From positions 1-25,476 of IMG/VR virus record IMGVR_UViG_3300044646_000364: a DNA stretch of 25,476 nt; one strand, written 5' to 3'. Every line of letters starts with the position of its first letter. Position 1 is the stretch's first letter. The DNA is from a virus. The notes under the pieces were generated by a model. It saw only the letters and a list, made by a program, of their open reading frames with translations. It did no database searches and was not told the DNA's origin. The position numbers and the translations under genes were made by a program. Below are positions 803 through 20,410 of the stretch, piece by piece.

Positions 803-3349
803 TTACCCAAACATGTCTTCTAGTGTTAATTGTTTATTGCCAACTTCCCAACCAATGTTGTCAGTAATAGATTTCATTGGTTCAATATATGACTTCTCAA
901 ATTGAGTATCATGGTCAATATAGTCATTGATACCAAACTGCTTTGGCAACGCTCCAGGGGATGATATCACATTTGTTGAAAATGGATTAGGTGTTCTTAG
1001 ATAACAAAACTTAATCTTATCCCCGTCTTGAATCTTGTTGTGCTTCTTATCTAGACCAAACTTATTTATGTAAGCATTGTAGACAAGAGCGCCTCTAACA
1101 TGAATTGGAATGGCTTTGCCTCCAATCTTGTGTTTGGTTACACCTTGGCAACTTCTAGGGAATGCAACATCTTCGAATGGTAATGTGTCAAATTCTTGTT
1201 TGAAATCCTCTACAAACCTAGCAAAATCATCCTTGGTGCCATTCATAATAATGTCAAGCGACTTCTTAATTGCTTCCTTAATCTTTGCTGGGGTAGAGGA
1301 CTTAACAGCCTCGATACCTTTCATCTTTAGCTTTGGATGCTCATACTGAACACCTTCTTCGTTAAAGACATTGAGAATGTATCTCTTCTTTGCAACCCAG
1401 ATACCCTTATCAGCAATTGACTCTCGCTTCATTTGCATACGCTGACTATGGATTAGCATATGGTTGGCAAGGTCATCATAACTCTTCTCAATGAATGGCT
1501 GGAAGACCTCATCACATGCCTTATCAAGCATACGAATAATCTTCTCGCGCTCAGGCAACTTACCACTATACACCTTCTCTACAAACTTATCTAGAGTGAT
1601 ATACAACGAGTCGGTATCTACAGCGATGACATAATCAACATTGTTAGTCTTGAGAGTCTTATTCAAGAACTCATTCATTCTATCTTGCATCCACCGAATC
1701 GATACCTGGCCAGATAATGTAATAGCCTCAGCCAGTTCAGTATCAAAGAATCTAAAGTAGATATTAGACAAAGCACCATAACAACTATTCAGCTGAATCT
1801 TCTTTGCCATCTGCATATTGTTATACTGGATGTACTTCTTCTCGTCCTCATGGTCTTTCGATACCTCAAACTTCTGCTTCGCTTCAAGCATCAGCTTCTT
1901 ATATCGCTTTCTATCGGCAAAGACCTTTTCCATTAGTGCTGGTAGGAATCCCAACTTATCCTTTCTATACATTGTACCATTAGCACAGAGTGTATAGTCA
2001 AGACTCTTGGCTTCGTCCTTATGCATTTGGAATACACCAGCATTGTCTAAACAATCTTCTGGTGTAAGGTCAACCTTTGACATCTTTGTATCAGGTGAGA
2101 TATTGTACTGCATGATCAAAGATGGGTATAGTGAAGTCAAGTCAAACGAGACAACATACTTATACATGCCAGGCTTGGGGTCCTTAACATAGGCACCCTT
2201 AATAGGTTGGTCCTTTTCTTCTCTAACCTTTTCTAGTTCTTCACCAGTCTTTGAAAGAGGAACAACGATATTACTATCAATCAGGTAGTTGTGGATGATC
2301 ATATCCCACATGCGTACAGTCTTTAGTGTATCAATGTAATCGACCTTCGCATCATATGCAATAGCAAGAACCTGATCGATAAGTTTCATCTTATCATCGA
2401 GCTTTGATACAAGAGTAACGTCGTGGATATTATACTCAATGAACTTTTGGAAGTCGTTCTTATAGAGACCAAACAAACTTTCGTATTCAGAGTAATCAAT
2501 CTTCTTCTCACCAAGCTCAAGGTGAGCAATATGGTTAAGAGAATAGCTTTCTGTATCGGAATAGGTAAACTTTCTATACAACTGAAGATAGTCAAGTACA
2601 GAAATGCCTCTTAGAGTCTTGGCCTTCATTACCTTGCCAGACCCTCTCATAATAATCTCTCTATCATCGATTACTTTCCAGGGAGAAAGTTTCTTTGACA
2701 TCTTACCTTCGTCATTGAATACTCTATCAATTCTATTGACGAGATAGGGAATATCGAACCCCTCTACGTTCCATCCTGTAACAATATCAGGGTCAACAAG
2801 AGGCGAGTCCCAAAGGGTTAGGAACTTCATAATCAAGTCGCGCTCGTTCTTACACTTAGCGTACATGATGTTGTCAGCAGAAGGAGTATAGTCACCACAA
2901 CCAAAGGTATAGTACCTATCCTTTACCTTGATAGTAATAGCAGTTAGTGCCTTATCAGCCTCATCGATGTTAGGGAATCCTTCATCAGCGGCGACCTCGA
3001 TATCGAGGTGGACGATGTTCATAATTGAAGCATCGTATTGAATCTCACCAGGATAGTATTCGTGGATGAATGGATAGATCAGGGAGTTCTTTGCTGTCAT
3101 TCCATATAGCTTGATTCCCTCGACTCCATCATACATCTTAATGTAATCCATCATATCATTGATGGATTCAAAGTCCTTCCGATCAGCTGGATAGCCATCA
3201 ATCGTCTTATAGGGAGCATTAGGATTGCTCGAGCGTTGGAAGCAGAAAGGTTGGTATGGGACGTCGGTATGGACCCTGCGGCCATCCTCATAGCCACGAA
3301 GAAGGATCTTATTCCCTCGGATGCTTACATTTGTATAGAACTTGCTCAT
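803..3349 (-). CDS. 43: DNA polymerase gp43, family B
   Basis: Replicative DNA polymerase with 3'-5' proofreading, 848 residues against about 898 in T4. The exonuclease carries Exo I (D116, E118 in HLDIEVA), Exo II (NVEGFDIPY, D199) and Exo III (YNIHD, Y306/D310). The polymerase carries motif A (SFDLTSLYPS, D403), motif B (K516 to YG at 524-525) and motif C (VDTDS, D578 and D580). All catalytic residues are present, so the enzyme should be active. The C-terminus QLTLEDMFG resembles a clamp-binding peptide and should tether the enzyme to gp45. It has its own sigma70-like promoter in the 64-base gap upstream and is followed directly by a small conserved gene. Confidence 0.98.
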   Translation of the reverse strand: MSKFYTNVSIRGNKILLRGYEDGRRVHTDVPYQPFCFQRSSNPNAPYKTIDGYPADRKDFESINDMMDYIKMYDGVEGIKLYGMTAKNSLIYPFIHEYYPGEIQYDASIMNIVHLDIEVAADEGFPNIDEADKALTAITIKVKDRYYTFGCGDYTPSADNIMYAKCKNERDLIMKFLTLWDSPLVDPDIVTGWNVEGFDIPYLVNRIDRVFNDEGKMSKKLSPWKVIDDREIIMRGSGKVMKAKTLRGISVLDYLQLYRKFTYSDTESYSLNHIAHLELGEKKIDYSEYESLFGLYKNDFQKFIEYNIHDVTLVSKLDDKMKLIDQVLAIAYDAKVDYIDTLKTVRMWDMIIHNYLIDSNIVVPLSKTGEELEKVREEKDQPIKGAYVKDPKPGMYKYVVSFDLTSLYPSLIMQYNISPDTKMSKVDLTPEDCLDNAGVFQMHKDEAKSLDYTLCANGTMYRKDKLGFLPALMEKVFADRKRYKKLMLEAKQKFEVSKDHEDEKKYIQYNNMQMAKKIQLNSCYGALSNIYFRFFDTELAEAITLSGQVSIRWMQDRMNEFLNKTLKTNNVDYVIAVDTDSLYITLDKFVEKVYSGKLPEREKIIRMLDKACDEVFQPFIEKSYDDLANHMLIHSQRMQMKRESIADKGIWVAKKRYILNVFNEEGVQYEHPKLKMKGIEAVKSSTPAKIKEAIKKSLDIIMNGTKDDFARFVEDFKQEFDTLPFEDVAFPRSCQGVTKHKIGGKAIPIHVRGALVYNAYINKFGLDKKHNKIQDGDKIKFCYLRTPNPFSTNVISSPGALPKQFGINDYIDHDTQFEKSYIEPMKSITDNIGWEVGNKQLTLEDMFG

Positions 3350-3388: not shown

Positions 3389-3417
3389 ATTATATAACAA
3401 AAAGGACCAGGTGTCAA
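3389..3417 (-). promoter_or_regulatory. Sigma70-type promoter for gp43
   Basis: On the minus strand, TTGACA (3417-3412) is followed by exactly 17 bases and then TATAAT (3394-3389). Both hexamers match the bacterial consensus fully. The -35 box overlaps the TGA stop of the upstream glycosyltransferase gene. The gp43 start is about 40 bases downstream of the -10 box. This would let polymerase be transcribed early by host RNA polymerase, independently of the accessory genes upstream. Confidence 0.8.
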
Positions 3418-4433
3418 CTATCAATATAACTAACGAATTGTCTAGCAGATGATTGCCATGAGATGTTCTGAACGGATTCGAAGGTTCGTTCTCTATCAAT
3501 GTTTAGCGAGTTTATTACTGCATCTTCCAAATCATCGCTAACGTATCCATTGACACCATTAATGATCTGGTCAATTGGACCAGTAACAGGGTAACCAGCA
3601 ACAGGGGTACCACAGGCCATACTTTCTAGGATAGTTATTCCAAACGTATCTACTTTACTTGGAAATACGCAAACATCAGCTGACTGGTAAAAGTAAGCAA
3701 GTTCTTTTCCAAACTTATACCCAACAAATCTTACGGATGGATACATCTTTTCTAGCTTTGATCTATATGGTCCGTCACCGACCACGATCTTTATTGCACC
3801 ACCGATCTCCACCCTGCAAAAATCATCTATATTCTTTTCCTTGCTGACTCTACCAACATAAAGTAAAACTATCTCAGAAGACTTTTTGTCTTTATATTTG
3901 AAGCAACTATCATACCCCTTACCAAGTACAACTGAATTCCATTGCTTATTTTCTTCAGCATTGGATGTTGAAGAACACATAACAACTTGTGAATTTTTAT
4001 GGAACCAATCAAAGTACCATTTAGTTGTCCATGTAGGCAGCCCAACTATCTGTTGAATAAACTCTGGAAACTTTGTGTGGTATGCTGATGTGTATTGATA
4101 CTTTAGTGATGTGAGAGCACGACGTGCTCTAAAACCAAGAGAACCTTCTGTTGCAATATGGAACTTGACATTATATCCTTTCATGTTCCAATCATACTTC
4201 CTCATCTTCAACATATTCCTCATTTTTGTATAAGAACATATTGCCCATGGTATAGATTTGTAAAATGGGATTGATACACATGTGAATAATCCTGGATGAA
4301 TAACATCAACAGAATACCCCTCCGGAAGGTTACTGATGATATTCTTATAGGTGGTCACTACACCACTTACCTGAGGTTCCCAGGCATCTGTTATTAAGAT
4401 GATTTTTGTTCTAGCCAATTTAGTATTTCCCAT
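3414..4433 (-). CDS. agt: GT4 glycosyltransferase, Agt-like (diacylglycerol glycosyltransferase candidate)
   Basis: A 339-residue GT-B fold glycosyltransferase of family GT4. The N-terminal domain opens with ITDAWEPQVSGVV, the usual acceptor-side glycine-rich start, and contains HIATEGSLGFRARR and AYHTKFPEFI. The C-terminal donor domain has LLYVGRVSKEKN, VGDGP and SKVDTFGITILESMACG (the E-x7-E site in its D-x7-E form), followed by PVAGYPVTGP. These patterns match the alpha-mannosyltransferase-like subgroup that includes bacterial Agt, which adds a sugar to diacylglycerol to make phosphorus-free glycolipids. The start overlaps the metallophosphoesterase gene by 40 bases, so the two are translationally coupled. 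This is the gene order known from marine plcP-agt operons. The family call is firm; the lipid role rests on the pairing. It could instead glycosylate another acceptor. Confidence 0.75.
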   Translation of the reverse strand: MGNTKLARTKIILITDAWEPQVSGVVTTYKNIISNLPEGYSVDVIHPGLFTCVSIPFYKSIPWAICSYTKMRNMLKMRKYDWNMKGYNVKFHIATEGSLGFRARRALTSLKYQYTSAYHTKFPEFIQQIVGLPTWTTKWYFDWFHKNSQVVMCSSTSNAEENKQWNSVVLGKGYDSCFKYKDKKSSEIVLLYVGRVSKEKNIDDFCRVEIGGAIKIVVGDGPYRSKLEKMYPSVRFVGYKFGKELAYFYQSADVCVFPSKVDTFGITILESMACGTPVAGYPVTGPIDQIINGVNGYVSDDLEDAVINSLNIDRERTFESVQNISWQSSARQFVSYIDS

Positions 4434-5146
4434 CTACCATCGTGGCGCTCGACAAGCGCTGTGCAACTTTCTACCCAGTCCCCATCGTTCATGTACTCTA
4501 TACCATTGACTTCTTTGATTACTGCTTTGTGGATATGGCCACATATCACACCATCAGCTTTTTGTTTATGGCAGTATTCAGTTATTAGTCGTTCAAAGTC
4601 CCCAAGATAAGAAACAGCTTCCTTTGTTTTATTCTTAAGGTAGGCACTTAAGCTCCAATGTGGTAGACCAAGCATATTCCTCACTTTACTAACTAACATG
4701 TTAACATCTAGTAGTACATTGTATAGAATATCACCAATGTGATATAGCCAACTTAACTTGGTTCTAAGAACACCATCAAACATGTCGCCATGGATCACCA
4801 TATAGACTTTACCATTGACACCTTGATGTCTACACTGGTTCACAAGATCAATGTTGCCAAAATGTATATCAAATGGCAATAGATCCCTCAGAGAATCATC
4901 ATGATTGCCGACAACATATATTACTTTAGTATCTCTCTTGGCTGCAGTTAGTATTCGTCTGATTACATTGGTGTGGGATTGAGGCCAGTAAAACTTTCTT
5001 CGTAGTCTCCAGCCATCAATGATATCGCCAACAAGATATAACTGCTCACTTGTATTGTGCTTAAGAAAGTCACACAAGAGATCAGCTTTGCAGCCCTTTG
5101 ACCCCAAATGGATATCTGATATAAAAATAGATTTATAGTGGGTCAT
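4394..5146 (-). CDS. plcP: Calcineurin-like metallophosphoesterase, PlcP/LpxH-like
   Basis: A 250-residue two-metal phosphoesterase of the UDP-2,3-diacylglucosamine hydrolase-like group (COG2908). Metal ligands are all present: D11-x-H13, GD at 40-41, GNHD at 80-83, H119 in VIHGD, and GHIH at 203-206. The segment WRLRRKFYWPQSH is typical of this group. In marine bacteria a member called PlcP hydrolyses membrane phospholipids to diacylglycerol and a phosphorylated headgroup under phosphate limitation, and it is encoded beside Agt. Here the next gene is exactly such a GT4 enzyme, overlapping by 40 bases. No signal peptide is visible, so it should act at the cytoplasmic face of the membrane. A true LpxH activity on lipid A precursors cannot be excluded from sequence alone. 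Confidence 0.75.
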   Translation of the reverse strand: MTHYKSIFISDIHLGSKGCKADLLCDFLKHNTSEQLYLVGDIIDGWRLRRKFYWPQSHTNVIRRILTAAKRDTKVIYVVGNHDDSLRDLLPFDIHFGNIDLVNQCRHQGVNGKVYMVIHGDMFDGVLRTKLSWLYHIGDILYNVLLDVNMLVSKVRNMLGLPHWSLSAYLKNKTKEAVSYLGDFERLITEYCHKQKADGVICGHIHKAVIKEVNGIEYMNDGDWVESCTALVERHDGRWEILNWLEQKSS

Positions 5147-5214: not shown

Positions 5215-5234
5215 AGGGGGAGTTGCCTCCCCCT
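5215..5234 (-). terminator. GNRA-capped hairpin downstream of hsp20
   Basis: The minus-strand RNA folds as AGGGGGAG, loop GCAA, CUCCCCCU: eight perfect base pairs closed by a GNRA-type tetraloop. It starts 8 bases after the hsp20 stop. A broken U-rich stretch (UCUUAUAUUAAGUUUUU) follows. It probably ends or stabilises the hsp20 transcript. Confidence 0.7.
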
Positions 5235-5241
5235 CCTTTGG

Positions 5242-5724
5242 TTACTTCTCTTCTACAAGTAACTCAGCCTTTTGTTCGATTGTCTTTTTACCAATTGGAA
5301 CCTTTCTAGGCTTTTGCTCTTCAGGGATTACATTCTCTAATTTAATTGTCAAGATACCATTATCTAACTGAACATCACGAACAACAATAGTATCAGCAAG
5401 AACAAACTCACGAGCAAATGAGCGTCCTGCAATACCCTTCACAATATACTCTCTTTCATCCCTTTCTGGCTTCATACCAACAACAGAAAGACGATTCTTA
5501 GAGGAAACGATTTCTAGATCTGCTTCGCTGAAACCAGCTACAGCCATTTCTAGCTCGTACGTGTAATCATCTTTCTTGATGAGTGAGTATGGAGGGAAGT
5601 TGTCGTTGCACTTGGCGATGGTAGCAGCATGCTGTAGAATATCAAATGCTCTATCAAAGCCGACTGAGTTGTGCCACGTGATGCGATCAAATTGATCGAT
5701 TAGACTTAGAGTGCTTCTAGTCAT
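5242..5724 (-). CDS. hsp20: Small heat-shock protein Hsp20
   Basis: An ATP-independent chaperone with an alpha-crystallin domain, about 160 residues. I chose the ATG at 5724 because AAGGAGA lies 6 bases upstream; the ATG at 5775 has no such site. The alpha-crystallin domain runs from about YSLIKKDDYTYELEM to the NGILTIKL motif, and the C-terminal tail has the I/V-x-I/V anchor (RKVPI). Hsp20 genes are widespread in marine T4-like phages; a link to virion protein folding or assembly is suspected but not proved here. A perfect late promoter lies 61 bases upstream and a strong hairpin follows, so this gene is probably a separate late transcription unit within an otherwise early/middle region. Confidence 0.95.
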   Translation of the reverse strand: MTRSTLSLIDQFDRITWHNSVGFDRAFDILQHAATIAKCNDNFPPYSLIKKDDYTYELEMAVAGFSEADLEIVSSKNRLSVVGMKPERDEREYIVKGIAGRSFAREFVLADTIVVRDVQLDNGILTIKLENVIPEEQKPRKVPIGKKTIEQKAELLVEEK

Positions 5725-5784
5725 AGTTATCTCCTTATTAAGCGAGTTAATGTTTACGTAGGCCCAATATGGCACCTACAATTT

Positions 5785-5801: not shown

Positions 5802-7256
5802 TTACAAAAATAGACTACGTCTTAAAATTTTGCCTGTAGAGTTTCTGGGAATACTATCGACATAGAATATTTTTTTTGGTATTTTGTATGGTGTAAGATT
5901 ATCCCTACAATATTGGATTGGATCTACTATTGGTGTGCCAACAATAAACGCAGCAACAATCTCTCCTCTGTTATCATCCGCTAGACCTATAACTGCTGAT
6001 TCCTCAACGCCGGGGCACTCATTAATAATATTTTCAATCTCTTCAGGATATATGTTTGTGCCACCAGATATGATAACATCATCAGCACGGCCAACAAAGT
6101 GTAGATAGTTCTCCTCATCCACATACCCAAGATCACCTGTAGCAATCATTTGTGTTTCTGCGTTGGCGTTGTTGGTGTCGGTGTACCCAGAAAACATTGT
6201 CATAGTTTTGGCATGTATCTCACCAACTTCAAGTGGCTTACATTCAATACCATTGTTAATAACTTTAATTGTTGACCCTATAACGGTTCTTCCAACTGTA
6301 GCTCGATGCATATACTTTTGGGATGGTCTGAGTAAAGTTATAGGACCGCATTCAGTAGAAGCATAAAGATCATAAACTATATCACCAAAGAAATTAATTG
6401 CCTTACCCTTAAGCAAAGGGGGGAACGTTGTGCTACCAACTACAATACTAGTCAGTGAACTTACATCGTATCTATGGGATGTAATATCACGAAGAATTAA
6501 TCTAAGTATAGATGGAACAACTAGCATGCATGTTACTTTTTCTTGCTCAATTGTCCTCATTATAGTCCTTGGGTTAATGCCTGTTGCTATTACAACTGTA
6601 CCCCCATTGTTTAGAGTTGCAATAGCAGTTCCATTGCCCCCAGCATTAGAAAATGATGCTATGGATAACATCACATCATACTCTTTCATACAATTCCAAT
6701 CAATCGGCATCAGATATGAGGTCATTGATCTTGACCTATGTGATATCAACATTCCCTTTGGCTTATTGGTAGTTCCAGAAGAATATACAATGTTAAATAT
6801 TGCAGAGTCTTTAAAGTCTGGATAATGCTCTATTGGTTTGTAATACTTCACCCACTCTTCGTACTTGCTGCCAAAGATTATTATTAGATCACAATGCTGT
6901 CCATATTCTTCTTTATAGAGGTCGTTGTCAATGAATAGAACGCGGGCCTTGCAATCCTTCAAACATTCAATGACTTCTCTTGCAACCCATTTAGGGTTAA
7001 TTGTTACAACAGGTACACCAACATCAGCAAGCCCCAATAATACCTCAAGATATTCAATACTATTATTTCCAACAATAGCAACATTACCCTGAAACCTGAT
7101 GTCCGTGAATGCAGCCTGGGACACACACCTCATGTTATCCGTTAGTTGTTTATAGGTAACAGAACGATCCCCATGTCGGACTGCCACTTTGTGGGGCGTC
7201 CGAGATGAGGATGAATGAATTCCGTTTGTTACTTTAAGTGGTATTAGACCATGCAT
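5802..7256 (-). CDS. AMP-binding acyl-CoA synthetase / ANL-superfamily ligase
   Basis: A complete 484-residue adenylate-forming enzyme that would activate a carboxylic acid with ATP and probably transfer it to CoA. The family core motifs are intact: YSSGTTNKPKG (158-168, P-loop), YASTECG (298-304), TGDLG (373-377), GRADD followed by SGGTNIYPEEIE (389-409), and the C-terminal catalytic lysine K476 in PRNSTGKILRR. The length is typical of a short-to-medium acyl-CoA or fatty-acid ligase. No carrier domain is fused, so it is not a peptide synthetase module. The substrate cannot be read from sequence. It lies upstream of hsp20 and the lipid cassette, transcribed in the same direction. Such ligases are unusual in tailed phages and this one looks acquired from a bacterial host. 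Confidence 0.93.
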   Translation of the reverse strand: MHGLIPLKVTNGIHSSSSRTPHKVAVRHGDRSVTYKQLTDNMRCVSQAAFTDIRFQGNVAIVGNNSIEYLEVLLGLADVGVPVVTINPKWVAREVIECLKDCKARVLFIDNDLYKEEYGQHCDLIIIFGSKYEEWVKYYKPIEHYPDFKDSAIFNIVYSSGTTNKPKGMLISHRSRSMTSYLMPIDWNCMKEYDVMLSIASFSNAGGNGTAIATLNNGGTVVIATGINPRTIMRTIEQEKVTCMLVVPSILRLILRDITSHRYDVSSLTSIVVGSTTFPPLLKGKAINFFGDIVYDLYASTECGPITLLRPSQKYMHRATVGRTVIGSTIKVINNGIECKPLEVGEIHAKTMTMFSGYTDTNNANAETQMIATGDLGYVDEENYLHFVGRADDVIISGGTNIYPEEIENIINECPGVEESAVIGLADDNRGEIVAAFIVGTPIVDPIQYCRDNLTPYKIPKKIFYVDSIPRNSTGKILRRSLFL

Positions 7257-7296
7257 TTAGCTACCTGTTATCAATTCTAGTTTGCCATAGCTGTAA

Positions 7297-7542
7297 TTAG
7301 CCAACTTTATTGCCCTCACCAGCCAGAATGTAACTATACACAGGCCAGGTTGCCATGTCCTTTCGCTTTGCACTTTGCACTTCGCGAATGAACGTATCCT
7401 TCTTGGCTCGCGAGCTCACACCCTTGTTAATCAACTCAATGCAGAATACTTTCAGCTCGTCAAGCGATACATCTGGACTAGCAACCATTTCGCCAAGAAG
7501 CTTTTTAAAGTCTTCGCCAATCTGTTCGTGCTTAACTTTCAT
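7297..7542 (-). CDS. Small hypothetical protein (81 aa)
   Basis: A predicted all-helical soluble protein with no recognised domain. Its start shares one base with the upstream stop (TAATG at 7540-7544), a translational coupling arrangement that supports both genes. It is charged, with a lysine/arginine stretch in the middle (SSRAKKDTFIREVQSAKRKD). It ends 40 bases before the acyl-ligase gene. Function unknown. Confidence 0.65.
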   Translation of the reverse strand: MKVKHEQIGEDFKKLLGEMVASPDVSLDELKVFCIELINKGVSSRAKKDTFIREVQSAKRKDMATWPVYSYILAGEGNKVG

Positions 7543-8841: not shown

Positions 8842-9105
8842 TTATTTAAATCCAAACATCTCTCTGACAGCCTGCCAGAAGGTTATTGGTTCATTATTAT
8901 CACTCTTCTTTCCATCAATGTCAACACTATCTGGAATCCATGGCTTGTCCATGTCTTCCCAACCCCTAGGGTCAGCCGAAGCGGCAGCAAGTGGAGCAGA
9001 AGCCTGTACAAGCTCAGCCTGTACCTTCTTAGCTCTCTTCTTCTTTACAAGGTTTTTTGCCTTCTTTCTTTTATTCGCCTTGATCGCTTTGACCACTTTC
9101 GTCAC
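8842..9105 (-). CDS. Small basic hypothetical protein (87 aa)
   Basis: The frame begins with a GTG at 9105, overlapping the regA 3' end by 35 bases, with AAAAAGG directly upstream; the exact start is uncertain. The N-terminal 30 residues are extremely basic (KANKRKKAKNLVKKKRAKK), followed by an Ala/Ser linker and an acidic-to-aromatic C-terminus (PWIPDSVDIDGKK, FWQAVREMFGFK). It ends within the ribosome binding site of the next gene. No domain recognised. It may bind nucleic acid through its N-terminus. Confidence 0.6.
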   Translation of the reverse strand: MTKVVKAIKANKRKKAKNLVKKKRAKKVQAELVQASAPLAAASADPRGWEDMDKPWIPDSVDIDGKKSDNNEPITFWQAVREMFGFK

Positions 9106-9502
9106 CCTTTTTACTTCTTCCGATATTGTATTTTGTCACCAGCTGCCATTCACTCTTCTGCTTGAAAGGAATGACTTTAATAAGTCTCATTGGTGCAACT
9201 GGTTCCTTTGTCTTTTCAGCGTCTACTAATCCAACCAAGCCCCAGTCGGAAAGTAGGTTAACAATAGTGTTTCTTCTGGCAATATCATCTTCTACCAATG
9301 AAGATGGTCTACCGTCAAGGGCAAAAAGCTCCTTGAAGTGTACAATATAGTATTTGCCTTTCTTATGGAGAATGTGACAAGACTGATAGAGGGTCTTGTT
9401 CTTTTCTGATGCAATACCAATTCTCGTTAAGGTCTCTTTGACCTTTAGGAAGTCATCATTTTGCTTTAGAGTGACTTCAATAAAACTATCTACTGTAATC
9501 AT
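9071..9502 (-). CDS. regA: RegA translational repressor
   Basis: RegA binds AU-rich start regions of early phage mRNAs, in T4 including those of gene 44, gene 45 and regA itself, and blocks translation. The 143-residue product carries the conserved RegA core: DFLKVKETLTRIGIAS, TLYQSCHILHKKGKYYIVHFKE and LFALDGR, then DDIARRN. T4 RegA is 122 residues, so this one has a longer, polar C-terminal tail (GRSKKGDESGQSDQGE). It overlaps the gp62 stop by 4 bases (ATGA). Recurrent GAGG/AU-rich leaders in this window are candidate targets. Confidence 0.95.
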   Translation of the reverse strand: MITVDSFIEVTLKQNDDFLKVKETLTRIGIASEKNKTLYQSCHILHKKGKYYIVHFKELFALDGRPSSLVEDDIARRNTIVNLLSDWGLVGLVDAEKTKEPVAPMRLIKVIPFKQKSEWQLVTKYNIGRSKKGDESGQSDQGE

Positions 9503-9891
9503 CTGTTCGCCCCACCTACATGCATTTTTTCTTTTAATTGTCTAAGCTGATCGACAGAAAGTATTAGTTGTATCTCCTTAGCTTTTCTAATATTACACTT
9601 ATAGTAATCACTAATGAGCTGTGTATCTTCATCTACTTCAGCTTTGTGCCATTTGGAGAACCTTTTGTTCTTCCTAATACTATTTAGAAGAAAATTAAAC
9701 TGGAGCTTTTTGTCTAATTCGTGATATCGGTTCATTTCATTGCAATACAGCACAGTATCCGCAAAATACGACAATCCACGGTTAACCAAATATGGATTGT
9801 ATAGTTTCTCGGCTTTTTCCGGATTTTCCGAGGTAGATATCACATCAATCTTGGTATAATTGATGGCGTTTACAAAGTCGAACGGATTCAT
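9499..9891 (-). CDS. 62: Clamp loader small subunit gp62
   Basis: Partner of gp44 in the clamp loader that opens gp45 and places it on primed DNA. I chose the ATG at 9891 (MNPFDFVNAI), which overlaps the gp44 stop as ATGA, the coupling expected for 44-62. An in-frame ATG at 9927 would extend it by 12 residues into gp44. The 130-residue product is shorter than T4 gp62 (187) but fits the compact marine T4-like form (YNPYLVNRGLSYF, FNFLLNSIRKNKRFSKW). Position between gp44 and regA matches T4. Confidence 0.92.
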   Translation of the reverse strand: MNPFDFVNAINYTKIDVISTSENPEKAEKLYNPYLVNRGLSYFADTVLYCNEMNRYHELDKKLQFNFLLNSIRKNKRFSKWHKAEVDEDTQLISDYYKCNIRKAKEIQLILSVDQLRQLKEKMHVGGANR

Positions 9892-10826
9892 GCGTATTCG
9901 CACTCTGCCATCAACTGGCTTAGACATGCTACCAGGTTGATCTCCTGGTCAGCAACGAATGCAGCCTTATATTGATAGTCAGCCAAGATAAGAATGGCCT
10001 GTGGGATAGATGTCCCTTTGAGAATGACAGATAAAGAGTCATAGATCTTTCTGAAAAGGACAGATGGCTCGATATCATTAGATTCAGCTACCCACTTCCT
10101 CATATCATTGAATCTTCTATCCTTTAGGATAGTAATTAGTTGAGTGAAGTGCTCGTCAGATAGGTTAACCAAGATACCAGAATCAATCTCACCACCAACA
10201 CTATACCGCTGAAGCTCATTTAGCACCCTTCTCCAATCAGGAAAGTGACGGGCAATCAACTCACCTACAACATTCTTATTGAACTTAATATTCTCAGTCT
10301 CAAGAATATTGAGAGTCCTCTTATAGAACTCACCAGCAAGCAATGGCTTCTCTTTAGGTGGAATCTTAAACTCAACAATAGAACATCTAGAATGTAGAGG
10401 TTCAATGATTCTAGACTTGAAGTTACAAGTTAGAATGAATCCACAGTTCTTTGAGAACTCTTCCATAAAGTTTCTCAAAGCAGGCTGGGTTGACTGGGCG
10501 TTAAGATAATCAGCCTCATCGAGGATAACCATCTTTCTTCCACCACCAAACGATACAGTACTAGCAAACTGCTGAATCTCATTTCGTAGTGTATCGATAC
10601 CACCGTTCATAGAACCGTTAATGATGATATAGTCACACTTTAGTTGCTCGCACATCGCACGAGCCGCAGTCGTCTTACCAGTACCCTGTGTACCAGTTAG
10701 TAGTAGGTTAGGAATAGTGCCACTATCAATGAATGCCTGGAATGTCTTCTTAATGTCCTTGGGTAGGACACAATCAGCTATAGTTCGAGGACGGTATTTT
10801 TCAACCCATAAAACTTCTTGTAGCAT
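9888..10826 (-). CDS. 44: Clamp loader ATPase gp44
   Basis: AAA+ ATPase of the clamp loader, 312 residues against 319 in T4. WVEKYRP at the N-terminus, Walker A GTQGTGKT (45-52), Walker B with DEAD (LDEADYL, 103-106) and the SRC arginine-finger motif (146-148) are all present. The start lies 4 bases beyond the gp45 stop, and the end overlaps gp62 by ATGA, so 45-44-62-regA are expressed as one unit. Confidence 0.97.
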   Translation of the reverse strand: MLQEVLWVEKYRPRTIADCVLPKDIKKTFQAFIDSGTIPNLLLTGTQGTGKTTAARAMCEQLKCDYIIINGSMNGGIDTLRNEIQQFASTVSFGGGRKMVILDEADYLNAQSTQPALRNFMEEFSKNCGFILTCNFKSRIIEPLHSRCSIVEFKIPPKEKPLLAGEFYKRTLNILETENIKFNKNVVGELIARHFPDWRRVLNELQRYSVGGEIDSGILVNLSDEHFTQLITILKDRRFNDMRKWVAESNDIEPSVLFRKIYDSLSVILKGTSIPQAILILADYQYKAAFVADQEINLVACLSQLMAECEYA

Positions 10827-14062: not shown

Positions 14063-14343
14063 ACCTTATCTTCCTGTGGTTGTGTGAAGTGATATAGAAG
14101 GACGATATAATGGATAGCCTTGAGCAAATCCTTCTTATTGTGTCCTTCCTTCTTACCATATCTCATTAAGTACTTGATAGCAGTATCTCTAGAAGTAGTA
14201 TCAACACTACCAAGGGAATCCCAAACATCAATAGTCTGGATCTCTTCCTTACCAACATAATGCTGTTGATAGGTCTTACTAATATACTCTAGTACTTCCT
14301 TGAGGATCTTATCCTCTCTAAATCTATAATCAATATTCGACAT
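14059..14343 (-). CDS. DUF3310-like (SaV-type) small protein
   Basis: A 94-residue protein with the DUF3310 pattern: QQHYVGKEEIQTIDVWDSL, then AIKYLMRYGKKEGHNKKDLLKAIHYI. This family is common in phages and is often called a nucleotide kinase-like protein, though that function is not established. The GAGG-TATTTAAATT leader resembles other leaders here. It ends with an ATGA overlap into the next gene, fitting the nucleotide-metabolism context. Confidence 0.75.
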   Translation of the reverse strand: MSNIDYRFREDKILKEVLEYISKTYQQHYVGKEEIQTIDVWDSLGSVDTTSRDTAIKYLMRYGKKEGHNKKDLLKAIHYIVLLYHFTQPQEDKV

Positions 14344-15196
14344 AATTTAAATACCTCTGAACGAGAGTGTCAATGTAGTCCATATTATACTTGGCTAGAT
14401 TGTAATTGTCAATAGAAATATCACTTAGCTTTAGATCAAAGTCCACTTCCTTCTCATACTTGCCATCGTAGATACCAGTTGGGCTATAATCAAACTTACC
14501 ACCACTCAATCCAAACCACACACCGGCAGAACTATCCCAAGTGTCAATGTACTGCTTGAATGGTGCCATCAACTTAATTTCATTAGGACCATCTACCATA
14601 CCAAGGAAATGAATCTTCTTACCATTATTTCTAATACGATCAAGGATACCTCTTTCCTTAAGCTCTTGCATAAACATATAGCGAGCAACAAAGCGCTGAA
14701 GCTTGTTACCCTTCTCCACATTATATGCATTAGGTACAGCAAGAATAGATACACCGATATAGTCTACATGCTTAGATGTAGATGCCCAATCAAATGCACT
14801 AATCAAATCTTCTTTGTCACCAACTTTAGATTGAGGACAGAAGAATGTACCATAGCCTTGTCCCTTAAACATAGGAGCAAGATCGATAGCAGCTTTAATG
14901 GTCATAGAAGAATGTTCAGCTGGATAGTCCGACATAACAACATAGTCTGCTCTAACACGGGCAGCTGCCTCTAACACTTGCATTGGTGTTAGCATTGGCT
15001 TGCCTTGCTTATACATTTCGAAGGCACTATTATCTAGAATGACAGTAGTATCTTCAAAGTCTCTATATTCACTATAGAATTCGGTATACTCTTCGCTAGT
15101 CTCAACTAAGTGAGCAAGAGTTAAGTGACATGGATAGTCTTTAACAAGATCCAAAAACTCAACAGGTGCAATATGGCAAAAGTGTGTCATAATCAT
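14330..15196 (-). CDS. dpdA: DpdA-like DNA guanine transglycosylase (TGT family)
   Basis: A 288-residue TIM-barrel protein of tRNA-guanine transglycosylase type. Candidate catalytic acids are D55 in ILDNSAFEM and D218/D221 in IDTWDSSAGVW, with DYVVMSDYP and IGVSILAVP in between, then IHFLGMVDGPNEI. Length and spacing fit phage DpdA better than tRNA TGTs, which are about 375 residues and carry a Zn site not seen here. DpdA swaps guanine in DNA for a 7-deazaguanine. FolE2, QueD-like and QueE-like genes lie in the same operon, which strongly supports the role. The ATG at 15196 has AGAGG 5-6 bases upstream and overlaps the previous stop by 4 bases. Confidence 0.82.
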   Translation of the reverse strand: MIMTHFCHIAPVEFLDLVKDYPCHLTLAHLVETSEEYTEFYSEYRDFEDTTVILDNSAFEMYKQGKPMLTPMQVLEAAARVRADYVVMSDYPAEHSSMTIKAAIDLAPMFKGQGYGTFFCPQSKVGDKEDLISAFDWASTSKHVDYIGVSILAVPNAYNVEKGNKLQRFVARYMFMQELKERGILDRIRNNGKKIHFLGMVDGPNEIKLMAPFKQYIDTWDSSAGVWFGLSGGKFDYSPTGIYDGKYEKEVDFDLKLSDISIDNYNLAKYNMDYIDTLVQRYLNYVEY

Positions 15197-15582: not shown

Positions 15583-15953
15583 ATAACTTCGATCCTATAC
15601 ACTTTGAGTAGATCGCCATACCGACCATAGCGAATTGAAGACAAATAAGGATTCTTATCTTTATTATGTTTTGGTTTCATTGCTTGAATTAAGTTCTGTT
15701 CAGTAAACTCAATATGAGGCTGCTGACATTCATATGGCTTAATTAACCAAACAAACTTCCACGATTCATGTTCTTCAAGTAAGGTTCTAAAGTGGGTCAT
15801 ATCATAACCCTTCTCTCTAGCCTTTCTATGGTTCTCTTCTAACTGTTTCAAACCAAGAGAGGTTGAACCAACGTACATTAGTTCACAGCTAGAATTGTAT
15901 ACACCGTATACGCCTCTAAACCTATACTCAAGTGGATCTTTTATACCAGACAC
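15579..15953 (-). CDS. GIY-YIG nuclease-domain protein
   Basis: A 124-residue single-domain GIY-YIG protein. GVY (14-16) and YVG (27-29) form the name motif, a H at 42 (ENHRKA) follows, and E85 in TEQNLIQAMKPKHN matches the catalytic Glu and its P-x-x-N context. The usual arginine between YVG and the His is not clearly present (GLKQLEENH). No DNA-binding extension is fused, unlike classic homing endonucleases. It overlaps folE2 by 13 bases and the next gene by 4, so it is embedded in the modification operon rather than inserted as a free-standing homing gene. Confidence 0.75.
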   Translation of the reverse strand: MSGIKDPLEYRFRGVYGVYNSSCELMYVGSTSLGLKQLEENHRKAREKGYDMTHFRTLLEEHESWKFVWLIKPYECQQPHIEFTEQNLIQAMKPKHNKDKNPYLSSIRYGRYGDLLKVYRIEVI

Positions 15954-16888
15954 CCTGGAACCTCATGTGGACTAAATTTAGATGTGACTGCAATAGCATT
16001 CCAAGGATGTAGACTCTCTTCATGCGATACAGCTAAAGAGAAATCTCTAATTCTACCCTTGTCAAACCATTCGTCCAATGCAGCATACATTATACGGCAA
16101 ACATCTTCAGAGAACAACAGGTTGGCTCCATTCAATTCAGCAAACGCTTGCTCATCTCGTCTCTTGACAACAATCTGTACCTCAGTTGGAATATGCTTTC
16201 TGCAAAGCTCAACGAGATCTTCAAACCAAATGATCTTCGATGGATCAAACTCAACCTTGACCTTTAGAATAGATCTCTGGCTATGAGCATTGGCAGCAGC
16301 ATTACGATGAGTGCGGGCATCATATGCTAGCTCAAAAGAGCAAGGACAGGTTGAGCTATAGACATAGTCAATAGTAATAAAGAACTTGTAGTTACCATTG
16401 TGGTACTGACCCTCTAGCTCTGTCTTATAGGCAATATGACCACGAAGTTTTTCTTCTGGATTATCGTCTCTACGAGAACGGAGAGCATCTTGAGTCCATG
16501 GATACTTAAAGCGAAGCTTACAGTATGCACTTTTTGAACCCTGCTTCTCAGCGAGCTCCTTTAGTGCTCCTTGGATGCCATCAATTGAAAGATGGTCTTT
16601 GATCTTATTATGCATAATGAGATAGAGTCTCGAAAGATTCAATCCCTTAGCATTAGGGTCATCCAAAGAGCAATAAAGGCTGGCTTCTGCCTGCAACTGT
16701 TGTGTATTACCATCACGGCGCTTGACCATAATAGGAAGGTCAACTGGAGCAATGCCAACCTTACGAAGAGGAACCCTCGCACCAGGTAAAACTGGATTTA
16801 CTTGAGGGTCAGGTAACTCCTCACAGTAGAAATTACTATCATAATTAAATACAAGATCTGGCATCTTGTTAGAGTAATCAATACCCAT
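15941..16888 (-). CDS. folE2: GTP cyclohydrolase type IB (FolE2)
   Basis: Converts GTP to dihydroneopterin triphosphate, the first step to 7-deazaguanines (and folate). The 315-residue protein has the FolE2 features KVGIAPVDLPI, KGLNLSRL (81-88), STCPCS (179-184) and HSQRS (202-206). FolE2 is not homologous in sequence to the common FolE and can use metals other than zinc, which suits low-zinc seawater. The start overlaps the queD-like gene by 11 bases. In this context it most likely feeds DNA modification rather than folate synthesis. Confidence 0.93.
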   Translation of the reverse strand: MGIDYSNKMPDLVFNYDSNFYCEELPDPQVNPVLPGARVPLRKVGIAPVDLPIMVKRRDGNTQQLQAEASLYCSLDDPNAKGLNLSRLYLIMHNKIKDHLSIDGIQGALKELAEKQGSKSAYCKLRFKYPWTQDALRSRRDDNPEEKLRGHIAYKTELEGQYHNGNYKFFITIDYVYSSTCPCSFELAYDARTHRNAAANAHSQRSILKVKVEFDPSKIIWFEDLVELCRKHIPTEVQIVVKRRDEQAFAELNGANLLFSEDVCRIMYAALDEWFDKGRIRDFSLAVSHEESLHPWNAIAVTSKFSPHEVPGCLV

Positions 16889-17360
16889 TATTACACCTCA
16901 CGGTTTCAATAGCACCATTTACATAAAAAGCAGAGTTAAACTCATGCTCGTATATTTCTACAGTGTCTATCCAAACACGATTGTTTGTCAACTCTTGAAT
17001 CTTGGGATTAATGTTATCAAACACAAACTTACATGATGCTTCAATACCAGGACCCCAGCCCTTTGTTACATCCATGACATTCATACTAATTGCATCCATT
17101 TCATGCAATTCTTTAAACAGTTTAAGATATGGGTCATCAGATGCAATTAGCATTCTATGGTCCCATTGGTCCTCTAACCACTTCTTTACCCATTTAAGAT
17201 CACCAAAGTCCATGCACCACATTCTTTCATCTAATGTTTTACATGCAAACGTAAACTTAACATAACGCCCATAACCATGGGCCCACTTACAATGACCCTT
17301 ATCTCTCCATTGACGATGGCCAGTGGAGATCGGACCTATTCTTTTAGTTGAATAATACAT
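16878..17360 (-). CDS. queD: QueD-like 6-carboxytetrahydropterin synthase
   Basis: Second step toward 7-deazaguanine: dihydroneopterin triphosphate to 6-carboxy-tetrahydropterin. I chose the ATG at 17360 (MYYSTKRIG), which shares a base with the upstream stop and is preceded by GGGAG. The 160-residue protein has ISTGH (H15), C24-x3-H28, DFGDLK (51-56), DHR (67-69), a GIEAS segment and VEIYEHEFNSAFY. The second His of the usual HGH zinc motif is Tyr30 (AHGYGRY). The catalytic Cys24 is kept. Similar HGYG forms exist in phage and bacterial relatives as I recall, so the enzyme is likely functional. Confidence 0.85.
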   Translation of the reverse strand: MYYSTKRIGPISTGHRQWRDKGHCKWAHGYGRYVKFTFACKTLDERMWCMDFGDLKWVKKWLEDQWDHRMLIASDDPYLKLFKELHEMDAISMNVMDVTKGWGPGIEASCKFVFDNINPKIQELTNNRVWIDTVEIYEHEFNSAFYVNGAIETVRCNNGY

Positions 17361-17827
17361 TATTTTGTCTCCCACCAGAATTCAAACCATTCTGGAACTT
17401 TCTTTCTTGAAATCTTGTTAGCATAAAACTTGGGTACTATACCCTGATCTTTGTTATAAATCAAGGAGGCAACGTAAATATTTTCAGAGTTGAGTTTTGA
17501 CGAAACTGAACTACTCCAATCTTCAAACATTGTCTTTAGTGCTTCTCCACTATCAATAATGTCATCAACAACAAGTACCTTCTTGCCATTGTTAATATCT
17601 TCTGGTACCCAACAGTTAGATTCTTTATTCTCATGGTCTCTTGTCGACCAGCTGATTGGAACTAATCGCAATCCAAGCTTATGGGATAGTACTACACCAG
17701 GAATCAAACCTCCTCGTGATAGTGCTACGATATAACTAAACTCAACTTTTGATCTCTTGATCTTTCTGACAAGGGTATCGATATCCTTATCAAAGTCTTT
17801 AATTTTATACTTAATTAACTTTGCCAT
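17360..17827 (-). CDS. Xanthine/guanine phosphoribosyltransferase-like protein
   Basis: Transfers a purine base to PRPP to form the nucleotide. The 155-residue protein has VALSRGGLIPGVVL, matching the E. coli Gpt segment, a DHEN patch, the PRPP-binding signature VLVVDDIIDSGEAL, and an aromatic C-terminus (EWFEFWWE) like the Gpt purine-binding end. The base specificity is inferred. Placement between the QueE/oxygenase and QueD genes suggests a role in guanine salvage: transglycosylation of DNA would release free guanine, and its GMP product could return to the GTP that FolE2 consumes. AGGAAAGG precedes the start; it overlaps its upstream neighbour by 13 bases. Confidence 0.8.
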   Translation of the reverse strand: MAKLIKYKIKDFDKDIDTLVRKIKRSKVEFSYIVALSRGGLIPGVVLSHKLGLRLVPISWSTRDHENKESNCWVPEDINNGKKVLVVDDIIDSGEALKTMFEDWSSSVSSKLNSENIYVASLIYNKDQGIVPKFYANKISRKKVPEWFEFWWETK

Positions 17828-18297
17828 ACACCTTTCCTAAACCATGTTACGAGAACTAATCTTTTACCTTTTGTGACTTCTACAACGCCATGATCAACTG
17901 CTGTATTATAATAAATTGTCCGGCCAATAGGTTGAGGTAATGATCTTTTATTATTGCCTCGGCCAACTATAATATCGCCACCCACCAAATCATCTGATTT
18001 GTCTATTAGGGTGATTGCAGTACCACCAACAGTATCAGGGTTATCCTGATGAGTCTTAGCATATGCCCCTGATTGATACTCTAAGAAGTAATTGGTTACT
18101 GAGCACTCGCTACCATGAAACTTAATTAACTTAGATTGAATACCATCCCACAAATCTGATCTTACCTTTCTAATGTTACATTTGTATACATTAAACAAAT
18201 TAACATCTTGAGTGTGGAATTGTTTTGGCGAATTGTTATAAAGTTGCCTTAGATACTCCAACTCTTTTTGATTAATAATATTACTTGCTTTAATCAT
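17815..18297 (-). CDS. 2-oxoglutarate/Fe(II) oxygenase (160 aa)
   Basis: A double-stranded beta-helix dioxygenase. H83-x-D85 (KTHQDN) and H136 (VDHGV) bind iron; R146 (KGKRLVL) would bind 2-oxoglutarate. The spacing fits prolyl-4-hydroxylase/PKHD-type enzymes. This copy is separated from the other three by queE, shares TAATG with the queE stop, and lies inside the deazaguanine gene set, so hydroxylation of a modified base, nucleotide or protein are all open. The substrate is not known. Confidence 0.85.
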   Translation of the reverse strand: MIKASNIINQKELEYLRQLYNNSPKQFHTQDVNLFNVYKCNIRKVRSDLWDGIQSKLIKFHGSECSVTNYFLEYQSGAYAKTHQDNPDTVGGTAITLIDKSDDLVGGDIIVGRGNNKRSLPQPIGRTIYYNTAVDHGVVEVTKGKRLVLVTWFRKGVWQS

Positions 18298-19217
18298 TAA
18301 ACACCAATAGTGTTACCCCACAAGTACACATGGACTCTTGCCGAGACATTAAAGCCTCTCTTAAATGCCTCTTCAGCAATAGCACCAGCACTCATGTAAC
18401 CTTCTAGCTCACCAGTCTGACCTTCTTCCGTAGCACCAACAGGCATAATCCAAACAGGGAATGTTACTCCTGCTTTTCTGAATTCATTAGTTACATGGTC
18501 AACTTCTTCCCATGTCTCTTTCTTACCGTTAACAACATACTTGATTTGCCCATGGCCTCTAGAAAGAGAATGGTACTCAGCTAAGACCTCAGGAACAATA
18601 GCATCCTTATTTGTTTCACCAGAAGTAGTCCAGAGCTTAGGAGAAGATGAAATAAAGATCTCTCTGCCCATCTCTCTCCAGTTAGTCATAAAGTTACTAA
18701 ACTCTGGCTTCAGTGCCTGTGTAGCATTAGTCTCAAATGTAATGAACTTAGGACTATTCTTGATCCTATCGAAGTAATCAAGAATACCAACTGTACAGTC
18801 TTGAGCATGCTTCATTAAAGGCTCACCACCAGTGAAGCACATATGGATAGGCTGGCCTGCTGGATGGTCAAACTTTGACTCTAGATTATGGGGAGATCTA
18901 ATGTGGCCAAGAATCTGGTTAGCAATATACTCTGGTGTACCCTTATGCATTAGGTGCTTGAACTTCTTAGCCCAAGAATAGGAAGAGTCACAACCATATT
19001 TCCATACAGGTAGGTCTTCGACTCGCTTAATAAAGTCGACGGGCATATCTTTGTAGGGAAGCTTATATGTCTTAGGATCGGTTGGGTCTTTCTGACCAAA
19101 GCCATCACACTGGAGGTTACAGAGAAAGTATCTCAACCAAGCAGTTGGTATACCAGTGTATCGACCTTCACCCTGAATAGAATAGAAGATCTCAGAATAG
19201 TTATATTCTTTTTGCAT
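18297..19217 (-). CDS. queE: QueE-like 7-carboxy-7-deazaguanine synthase (radical SAM)
   Basis: Ring-contraction step giving 7-carboxy-7-deazaguanine (CDG). The 306-residue protein begins with YSIQGEG (12-18), the QueE hallmark, and has TGGEP (129-133) for SAM. The cysteine motif is split: C33-x3-C37, then about 38 residues, then C76 in YGCDSSYSW, equivalent to the CNLxCxxCDT motif with an insertion between the second and third cysteines. It is longer than bacterial QueE (about 210-225) because of this insertion and others. It heads the deazaguanine block behind its own sigma70-like promoter; GAGG precedes the start. Confidence 0.88.
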   Translation of the reverse strand: MQKEYNYSEIFYSIQGEGRYTGIPTAWLRYFLCNLQCDGFGQKDPTDPKTYKLPYKDMPVDFIKRVEDLPVWKYGCDSSYSWAKKFKHLMHKGTPEYIANQILGHIRSPHNLESKFDHPAGQPIHMCFTGGEPLMKHAQDCTVGILDYFDRIKNSPKFITFETNATQALKPEFSNFMTNWREMGREIFISSSPKLWTTSGETNKDAIVPEVLAEYHSLSRGHGQIKYVVNGKKETWEEVDHVTNEFRKAGVTFPVWIMPVGATEEGQTGELEGYMSAGAIAEEAFKRGFNVSARVHVYLWGNTIGV

Positions 19218-19254
19218 TACAAAAGCCTCAAATTAAACATTATTTATGACGACC

Positions 19255-19283
19255 ACTATACAACAGCTCATCGTTATTTTCAA
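19255..19283 (-). promoter_or_regulatory. Sigma70-type promoter upstream of queE
   Basis: Minus strand: TTGAAA (19283-19278), 17-base spacer, TATAGT (19260-19255). Each hexamer has one mismatch to consensus. It lies in the 66-base gap between an oxygenase gene and queE, the only sizeable gap in the operon, and would drive the deazaguanine genes separately from gp46. A late-promoter-like CATAAATA lies just downstream (19249-19242). Confidence 0.55.
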
Positions 19284-19835
19284 CTATCTCCAATGTGGAC
19301 CCAAAGCCCACATCACTAAAGTTTTTCTCACACCCCGTTGAACCTTCTCAACACTGTGAAATGTTGTTGGCTTAAAGATAACCATATCGCCTTTCTCAAG
19401 GCAAACAGGTTCATCATTAATAATAAGTTCACCACCACTATACTCACTTCTATCCGACAACATCAAAACCAAACTAATTTTTCTTTGATGTGGGGTTTTG
19501 TTATTGAAGATTGTATCAACGTGTCTTGCATAATGGTCATCTTTAAAGTATGTGGTGTGCTGTATCTCTAGCACCCTATAAAGTTCAACATCAAACGCAT
19601 GTTGATAGAAGTCGATAAATGGGTAGATGTTATCTAGAATGTTAAGATAAAACTTTCTATGGTTGTTAAAAGTTATAAACCGAGTCTCACAAGACCTCAT
19701 ATTCTTATCATTGGATATGCCTGATGTCAGACTGTTAACAGTCTGACCTTGACGGATTGGTATACGTTCTGTTGGGGAACTCCAACTGTCAATTAGGTCT
19801 TTTGGAATAGCTGACTTAACAGTTATAATTGACAT
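19284..19835 (-). CDS. 2-oxoglutarate/Fe(II) oxygenase (183 aa)
   Basis: PKHD-type dioxygenase. H105-V-D107 (YARHVDT) and H160 (TTFHSV) bind iron, R170 (RGVRKTL) binds 2-oxoglutarate; SGGELII and GDMVIFKP are conserved barrel segments. It is the third of three adjacent oxygenases sharing the ending pattern GVR-x-L-V/F...GP-W, so these are probably old duplicates. One base separates it from the previous stop. Substrate unknown. Confidence 0.88.
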   Translation of the reverse strand: MSIITVKSAIPKDLIDSWSSPTERIPIRQGQTVNSLTSGISNDKNMRSCETRFITFNNHRKFYLNILDNIYPFIDFYQHAFDVELYRVLEIQHTTYFKDDHYARHVDTIFNNKTPHQRKISLVLMLSDRSEYSGGELIINDEPVCLEKGDMVIFKPTTFHSVEKVQRGVRKTLVMWALGPHWR

Positions 19836-19836
19836 G

Positions 19837-20409
19837 CTACTTCCAGGTTGGACCAGTAATAAAAATGAACAAAATGTTTCTTACACCAGATGTTATTTGC
19901 TCTACCTTGTGTTGAGTGTATGATGTAAATAGGGCAACAGTACCTTTACCCTCTACTTTAGCTGGAAGCGGGTAGCCAGGATGCTCAAAAACAAACTCGC
20001 CACCCTCATACTCTGTTGGATCAGATAACATTACGGTCAAAGAAAGCTTTCTATCGGTTTTCAGATTGTTGTACTTAGGGTTGTTTAGAGCCATTTTATA
20101 ACTCATGGTATCATCATGCCAACCCACACCGTGGCCTGGTAGGTATGTAATATGCTGGATTGCTCCATCAATCTGATAATCAACATCAATACCTAGTTTG
20201 TTAATATTACTTTTTGTGTAATCAATTAACGATTTAAAGACACCTTCGTATGGCTTCATGTTAGCCGATAAGAATCTAACATTACATCTTCTTACACCTG
20301 TCTTACCAAACGATGGATCTATAGGTACATTGTTGATCATCCAGGTGTTGACATTGTTACACCATGTTGATGGAAAGTAATTTGGTGTTACTACAATCTT
20401 TGGAATCAT
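19837..20409 (-). CDS. 2-oxoglutarate/Fe(II) oxygenase (190 aa)
   Basis: I chose the ATG at 20409 (MIPKIVVTPN), one base after the upstream stop and with AAGGTGG upstream, over the one at 20442. H98-D-D100 (VGWHDDT) and H167 (YTQHKV) are the iron ligands and R177 (SGVRNIL) the 2-oxoglutarate ligand. LSDPTEYEGGEFVF is typical of PKHD-type hydroxylases. It ends GPTWK, matching its neighbours. Substrate unknown. Confidence 0.88.
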   Translation of the reverse strand: MIPKIVVTPNYFPSTWCNNVNTWMINNVPIDPSFGKTGVRRCNVRFLSANMKPYEGVFKSLIDYTKSNINKLGIDVDYQIDGAIQHITYLPGHGVGWHDDTMSYKMALNNPKYNNLKTDRKLSLTVMLSDPTEYEGGEFVFEHPGYPLPAKVEGKGTVALFTSYTQHKVEQITSGVRNILFIFITGPTWK

Positions 20410-20410
20410 A

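Follow-up and report, generated by a model that had tools for sequence, protein, structure and literature searches.

An acyl-CoA synthetase-like gene of T4-like phages lies in a recombining phosphate-stress island

Introduction

The locus described here combines elements of two known systems, the phosphate-stress genes (pstS and others) of T4-like cyanophages and pelagiphages and the PlcP-Agt pathway by which phosphate-starved bacteria (Phaeobacter, SAR11 and Pseudomonas aeruginosa PA3219-PA3218) remodel their lipids. It was found in a 25,476-nucleotide stretch of viral DNA (IMG/VR record IMGVR_UViG_3300044646_000364, positions 1 to 25,476), called the window throughout. Its central element is a gene for an acyl-CoA synthetase-like protein of the ANL superfamily (ACS), a class of ligases that uses ATP to convert an acid to an acyl-adenylate. 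In the pelagiphage Mosig EXVC030M, PstS adjoins a PlcP-like gene. To our knowledge, phosphate-uptake genes are familiar in phages, and there are few accounts of phage enzymes that remodel the membrane lipids of the host.

The bacterial PlcP-Agt pathway has been described from marine bacteria (PMC4796936), and in P. aeruginosa the pair makes glycolipids under phosphate stress (PMC8528852). The window pair matches its bacterial counterparts in sequence and gene order, and the two genes overlap in the same way. The pathway as published, in the portions of these accounts that were available, does not include an acyl-CoA synthetase, whereas here the pair is phage-borne and is accompanied by ACS, Hsp20 and an interchangeable PstS/porin unit. 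Like the cyanophage and pelagiphage systems, the locus belongs to a T4-like phage type with PstS in sister slots; unlike them, it adds acid activation, and in the window type glycolipid synthesis as well. The DNA polymerase gp43 of this phage clade is only ~48% identical to that of named phages.

Viral acyl-CoA synthetases of the same superfamily have been annotated before: ACSL in three viral operational taxonomic units from digesters (PMC10401857), fadD in phage contigs as a gene close to a host copy (PMC12013262), and an ANL 'Acs' of an uncultured Caudovirales phage among the BFVD entries (A0A6J5L563). In the accessible portions of these sources they are annotations only, without a conserved slot, an A4 signature or a phosphate island. 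The phage clade appears to be undescribed so far, as do the slot it always occupies, the A4 signature and the PlcP-Agt/PstS setting, in the open-access literature searched, to the extent that its text was available. The same literature contained no paper on PlcP in phages.

The enzyme

The ACS open reading frame (ORF) begins with ATG and encodes 484 residues with no internal stop. Its translation scored above the Pfam cut-offs for AMP-binding (190.7 bits, E = 4.5e-56, cut-off 29.9) and AMP-binding_C (56.9 bits, E = 4.2e-15, cut-off 24.5), and the two domains together span residues 17-476. It also matched 207 distinct sequences of solved ANL structures; at such Pfam and ANL scores a chance match is no concern. 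Motif scans and alignments located the A3 phosphate-binding loop, the A5 glutamate, the A7 motif (TGDLG at residue 373), the A8 arginine/glycine loop and the A10 lysine (Table 1). ACS is an intact, stand-alone, two-domain ANL enzyme. The first-pass annotation of the window had described a complete 484-residue adenylate-forming protein, and the uninterrupted frame and both domains bear this out. Its statement that all motifs are intact holds for A3, A5, A7, A8 and A10, including lysine K476, and is slightly too strong because A4 is altered.

The closest solved structures by sequence are those of Bacillus subtilis MenE (5buq and 5x8f; 178.7 bits, or 253.9 bits with the family profile), an enzyme of similarly compact size. 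ACS lacks the A4 histidine of MenE, and no genes for menaquinone lie in its neighborhood; E. coli MenE is ~21% identical, and the menE equivalog model gave 198.7 bits against a cut-off of 330.

Distribution in phages

Scans of IMG/VR, as the first-pass annotation had advised, recovered ACS from 11 further contigs, a lower bound, giving 12 contigs with the window. Six of these (L001-L006) carry copies 96-100% identical to the window protein. The diverged copies are 56% (L245), 55% (L246), 54% (L218) and 50% (L220, C-terminal 312 residues only) identical to it, and the L014 copy is 38% identical over the best segment and ~40% in global alignment. Identity between phage lineages is 38-56%. Seven phage sequences, placed in a tree beside ANL enzymes of E. 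coli and other bacteria, formed one clade with support of 100/99 and a single origin. The neighbors of this clade are uncharacterized bacterial enzymes, and its position relative to E. coli MenE, EntE and Acs is not trusted because these three have very long branches.

All copies share one slot. ACS sits between small conserved ORFs (81 aa, usually plus an ORF of 105 to 128 aa) and Hsp20, and in every contig reaching that far the slot falls inside the stretch from gp62/RegA to gp43. In two contigs, L219 and L046, ACS is missing between these flanks. The T4-like setting assigned to the window is confirmed by its neighbors gp43, gp62, gp44, gp45, gp46, gp47 and RegA. The supposed rarity of such enzymes in phages also agrees with the small number of contigs and with the named phage records, none of which held a protein >30% identical to the window ACS.

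No close cellular donor was found in one bacterial phylum, a plasmid collection and a single pattern-based scan across all genomes, the best full-length relatives being ~31% identical. The scan of genome contigs returned a single match at 28% identity. The phylum to which that match belongs, searched in 148 genomes, gave full-length matches of ~30% and partial ones of at most 33%, and the closest relative in the plasmid collection was ~31% identical. Since the same gene with the same neighbors recurs in independent contigs, ACS is phage-borne and not a host chimera. These results identify ACS as a genuine phage gene.

The phosphate-stress island

ACS had been placed in one island with a "lipid pair", and that pair can now be named. 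PlcP and Agt are 49% and 37% identical to PlcP and Agt1 of P. aeruginosa, respectively, and the two genes overlap in the same order. The plasmid-borne Pseudomonas pair that served as the reference was matched to PA3219/PA3218 on gene order, not on a locus tag, and is presumably the same. All nine ACS contigs that read past Hsp20 (the window, L002, L004, L005, L006, L014, L218, L220 and L246) carry PlcP and/or PstS. The presence of PstS and a porin in the same slot of other phages marks the setting as a phosphate-stress cassette.

The island recombines as a cassette. Relative to the window, L004 and L005 have gp43 genes 99.5-99.6% identical at the nucleotide level, a PlcP of 68% identity, and PstS plus porin where the window has Agt. 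The reverse is seen in L006, whose ACS has 97% nucleotide identity to that of the window against 72% for gp43.

Close ACS copies gave ratios of nonsynonymous to synonymous substitution rates (dN/dS) of 0.22-0.29 at dS 0.06-0.08, calculated from ~17-33 substitutions per pair. Between lineages dN/dS was 0.14-0.38, with dS high and partly saturated. Judged by these ratios, ACS is under purifying selection. Of the features that define an auxiliary metabolic gene, three are present: viral flanks, recurrence in independent contigs and purifying selection (dN/dS 0.14-0.38, with small counts in the closest pairs).

Three side observations concern the genes of the island. In L004 (3311-5537), L005, L014 (4579-6826) and L220 (1611-3840), this slot holds phage PstS beside an outer-membrane porin of the Porin_5 family. 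The porins of L004 and L220 are 100% identical, although L004 has a gp43 of the window type and the gp43 of L220 is only 76% identical to that type, which points to a recent exchange of the cassette; relatives of the porin and PstS on plasmids are scattered over several proteobacterial classes. The ACS proteins of L245 (5001-6458) and L246 (5001-6458) are near-identical until the C-terminal domain and then diverge sharply, which suggests recombination inside the gene. PlcP-like genes are widespread in viral contigs (L012-L089; 118 confirmed stretches, 80 kept). Very often an Agt-like glycosyltransferase comes directly after them, and many lie outside the T4-like slot.

Table 1. Positions of ACS, its motifs and the surrounding features in the window
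Feature	Position	Strand	Basis
ANL-superfamily acyl-CoA synthetase-like gene (ACS)	5802-7256	-	ORF, Pfam, phage homologues in same slot
A3 phosphate-binding loop YSSGTTNKPKG, residues 158-168	6753-6785	-	motif scan and alignment
A4 region SFSNAGG, residues 201-207, S-N instead of aromatic-His	6636-6656	-	alignments
A5 YASTE, residues 298-302	6351-6365	-	alignment
A8 hinge and CoA-loop region GRADDVIISGGTNIYPEEIE, residues 389-408	6033-6092	-	motif scan, alignment
A10 PRNSTGK with catalytic-type lysine K476	5829-5849	-	motif scan
Remnant GKLELITGS* of small ORF (~105-128 aa) preceding ACS in other phages	7257-7286	-	junction comparison
Conserved 81-aa phage ORF upstream of island	7297-7542	-	all ACS contigs reaching it and ACS-less L046/L219
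Hairpin GTAGGTGCC..GGCCTAC between ACS and Hsp20	5757-5780	-	in loci with and without ACS
Hsp20 small heat-shock protein, 160 aa from ATG common to other phages	5242-5724	-	Pfam HSP20, phrog_432, conserved start
Terminator-like hairpin after Hsp20, parting Hsp20 from PlcP gene	5215-5234		consensus scan, sequence
Metallophosphoesterase resembling PlcP, the phospholipase C that remodels lipids under phosphate stress	4394-5146	-	Pfam Metallophos; identity to P. aeruginosa PlcP
Agt-like family-4 glycosyltransferase (glycolipid synthase), overlaps PlcP	3414-4433	-	Pfam Glycos_transf_1; identity to Agt1
T4-like DNA polymerase gp43, border of variable island	803-3349	-	phrog_262, 991 bits
Conserved flank upstream of island: RegA (9071-9502), gp62 clamp loader (9499-9927)	9071-9927	-	phrog_242, phrog_225

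Possible role and substrate

We tentatively propose that ACS is a functional acyl-CoA synthetase peculiar to these phages, which keep its gene as accessory metabolic cargo of the recombining phosphate-stress cassette and use the enzyme to recycle fatty acids from membrane turnover. Upon infection of a phosphate-limited host, PlcP would strip the phosphate headgroups from phospholipids to leave diacylglycerol, and Agt would convert the diacylglycerol to a phosphate-free glycolipid. ACS would capture free fatty acids from membrane turnover and activate them with ATP, via the acyl-adenylate, to acyl-CoA or acyl-acyl carrier protein (acyl-ACP). Host enzymes could then re-esterify the activated acids into membrane lipid or oxidize them for energy, and the freed phosphate would enter phage DNA. 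Both the profile match described below and the lipid-acting neighbors make fatty acids the most likely substrate. The place of ACS in a swappable island otherwise given over to phosphate shortage suggests that the phages alter the membrane lipids of their hosts in the course of infection. In another system, proteomics showed that fatty-acid degradation proteins are increased in phosphate-limited and infected cells (PMC11170926), an observation that fits the model without being a test of it.

Several observations weigh against this proposal, beginning with its setting. PlcP releases diacylglycerol rather than free fatty acid, so the fatty acids would have to come from other lipases. The ACS-less phages L046 and L219 bear the same phosphate cassette, and the link to PlcP therefore belongs to the slot and is not specific to ACS. 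Matches to the Pho box were not clearly above chance (5 weak matches versus 3.8 expected). The hairpin between ACS and Hsp20, together with the terminator-like element between Hsp20 and PlcP, places ACS probably in an upstream transcription unit and not in the PlcP-Agt unit. Searches of the window and of related contigs of 188, 197 and 179 kb gave no match to the families of PlsC-type acyltransferases, PP-binding carriers or enoyl-CoA hydratases, so the product would have to be used by enzymes of the host. It is accordingly unlikely that the phage itself carries out beta-oxidation, which the first-pass annotation had offered as one outcome.

The enzyme itself supplies the remaining objections. 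None of the curated cut-offs was reached by phage ACS among the NCBIfam families listed. With the best-scoring family profile, the window ACS gave 315.4 bits, L218 gave 314.2 and L014 gave 263.8, all below the curated cut-off of 476. The full-length phage members (264-315 bits) resemble that family in their full-length two-domain ANL architecture and in motifs A3, A5, A7, A8 and A10; they differ in falling below its cut-off, in the serine and asparagine or threonine of A4, in their shorter length (465-485 aa) and in forming their own clade. A4 forms part of the lining of the acid pocket and is also involved in the conformational change that 4-chlorobenzoate-CoA ligase and other enzymes undergo. 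In the cellular relatives aligned, A4 is mostly P-[aromatic]-H, for example PFFHTGG, with clear exceptions in E. coli Acs and a Sphingopyxis enzyme (L132) that has PLYSN. The phage members checked all read S-[FL]-[SF]-[NT]-x-G-G. Neither the window ACS (S-F-S-N) nor any of these other phage members has the cellular signature P-[FLY]-[FY]-H. From these alignments, the substrate pocket may be unlike that of a fatty-acyl enzyme, and with A4 replaced the substrate cannot be assumed. The earlier suggestion of fatty acids thus found no confirmation in A4, which differs from that of cellular fatty-acyl-CoA synthetases, in the listed NCBIfam families, or in the nearest cellular relatives, which at ~31% identity or less fix no substrate. 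In the L014 copy, TGD is changed to TND, GRxDD to GRANN and SGG to TRG; given these changes at TGD, the hinge and the CoA loop, its second half-reaction may also differ.

Structure prediction did not narrow the choice. A first AlphaFold model from a shallow alignment was poor (predicted local distance difference test score, pLDDT, 47.6), and a second was moderate (pLDDT 64.6). The structural neighbors of the second model are many ANL enzymes with tied Z-scores of 25.7-27.2, which point to no single substrate. Aryl-CoA ligases, luciferases and amide-bond synthetases are the top matches, and o-succinylbenzoate and feruloyl ligases are among the top PDB sequence matches.

These matches lend some support to a different function, which is possible, if doubtful: a working phage ANL ligase for a non-fatty acid (aryl, dicarboxylic, hydroxylated or amino), used to modify surfaces, DNA or small molecules or to form amide bonds. 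Its place in the phosphate-stress slot would then reflect no more than a hot spot for accessory genes. Besides the structural and PDB matches, the A4 change in every phage member checked argues for it, as do the uncharacterized bacterial tree neighbors, among them the Sphingopyxis enzyme that also has S-N at A4. The window also has a 7-deazaguanine pathway, and further modification of its product could, speculatively, use such an enzyme. Set against a non-fatty acid are the lipid-acting neighbor genes and the absence of a carrier-protein domain from the records searched. A related proposal is that the altered pocket (A4 His to Asn or Thr) marks an ANL clade that evolved in phages for an acid from phosphate-stress membrane remodelling, or for a phosphate-free membrane or surface component; we consider it rather unlikely. 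Were it so, the fullest islands, such as that of L014, would combine uptake (porin and PstS), PlcP, Agt and acid activation. Activation might instead serve phosphate-free lipid synthesis by acyl delivery to the host acyl carrier protein, or by supply of acyl-AMP to a membrane acyltransferase, as in an acyl-ACP synthetase or aminolipid step, and not the making of acyl-CoA for oxidation. The structure of an acyl-ACP synthetase (8hsy) does match the profile at 172 bits, and non-phosphorus lipids are described as replacing phospholipids in phosphate-limited bacteria in the available text of PMC4796936. The sequence features used do not separate acyl-ACP from acyl-CoA synthetases, and no PlsC-like gene was present in the phage records searched; this alternative is improbable.

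Two further explanations would deny ACS any role. It could be a selfish or neutral passenger, a host gene that was captured at a recombination hot spot, brings the phage no benefit and is decaying, and the presence/absence polymorphism (L046 and L219) and the loss of several consensus residues from the L014 copy point that way. Every copy is open, however, and dN/dS stays well under 1. The family is an old one whose phage lineages have diverged to 38-56% identity, all at one slot, and the window kept the ACS frame and start through the deletion of the small ORF upstream. A passenger is therefore a highly improbable explanation. It is next to impossible that faulty assembly or binning attached host DNA to a phage contig. 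Acyl-CoA synthetases are common in bacteria, and the matches in phage collections mostly resemble bacterial contamination, in unannotated records or those of the metagenome-assembled genome type. Against this, no cellular copy above ~31% identity was found in the cellular collections searched, and the T4-like flanks repeat around the same gene in independent contigs from different samples. These conserved flanks rule out the host chimera that the first-pass annotation had named as a danger.

Under the fatty-acid proposal, a phage with PlcP-Agt and its own ACS offers a testable case of viral release of membrane phosphate and recycling of acyl chains, with consequences for lipid and phosphorus cycling if environmental viruses do so. 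The A4 change poses a concrete question of enzymology, namely which acid the phage clade activates.

Expression signals

The junction upstream of ACS retains the end of a deleted gene. The full small ORF is present in L004, L014 and L218; in the window it is mostly deleted and its last codons remain. The stop codon of the remnant immediately precedes the ACS ATG, and the ACS frame survived the deletion. This arrangement of stop and start suggests translational coupling of ACS to the preceding ORF. The conserved 105-aa form of that ORF is found before ACS at 2196-2513 of L014 and 4300-4617 of L218, and it is retained in the ACS-less L219. Downstream of ACS, the 5757-5780 hairpin folds better than shuffled sequences (z -2.0 to -4.4), and in L219 it is followed by T6.

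Other genes in the window

Genes for 7-deazaguanine synthesis occupy positions 15941-19217 and comprise a FolE2-type GTP cyclohydrolase (15941-16888), QueD (16878-17375) and a QueE-like protein (18297-19217). Their presence suggests a modified guanine in the phage DNA. The gene at 14330-15196 had no Pfam match and could be a related transglycosylase. A run of 2OG-Fe(II) oxygenase-like genes lies within 17815-20959, of which 17815-18297 and 20411-20959 match Pfam 2OG-FeII_Oxy_3, and 19284-19835 and 19837-20442 resemble such oxygenases by eye only.
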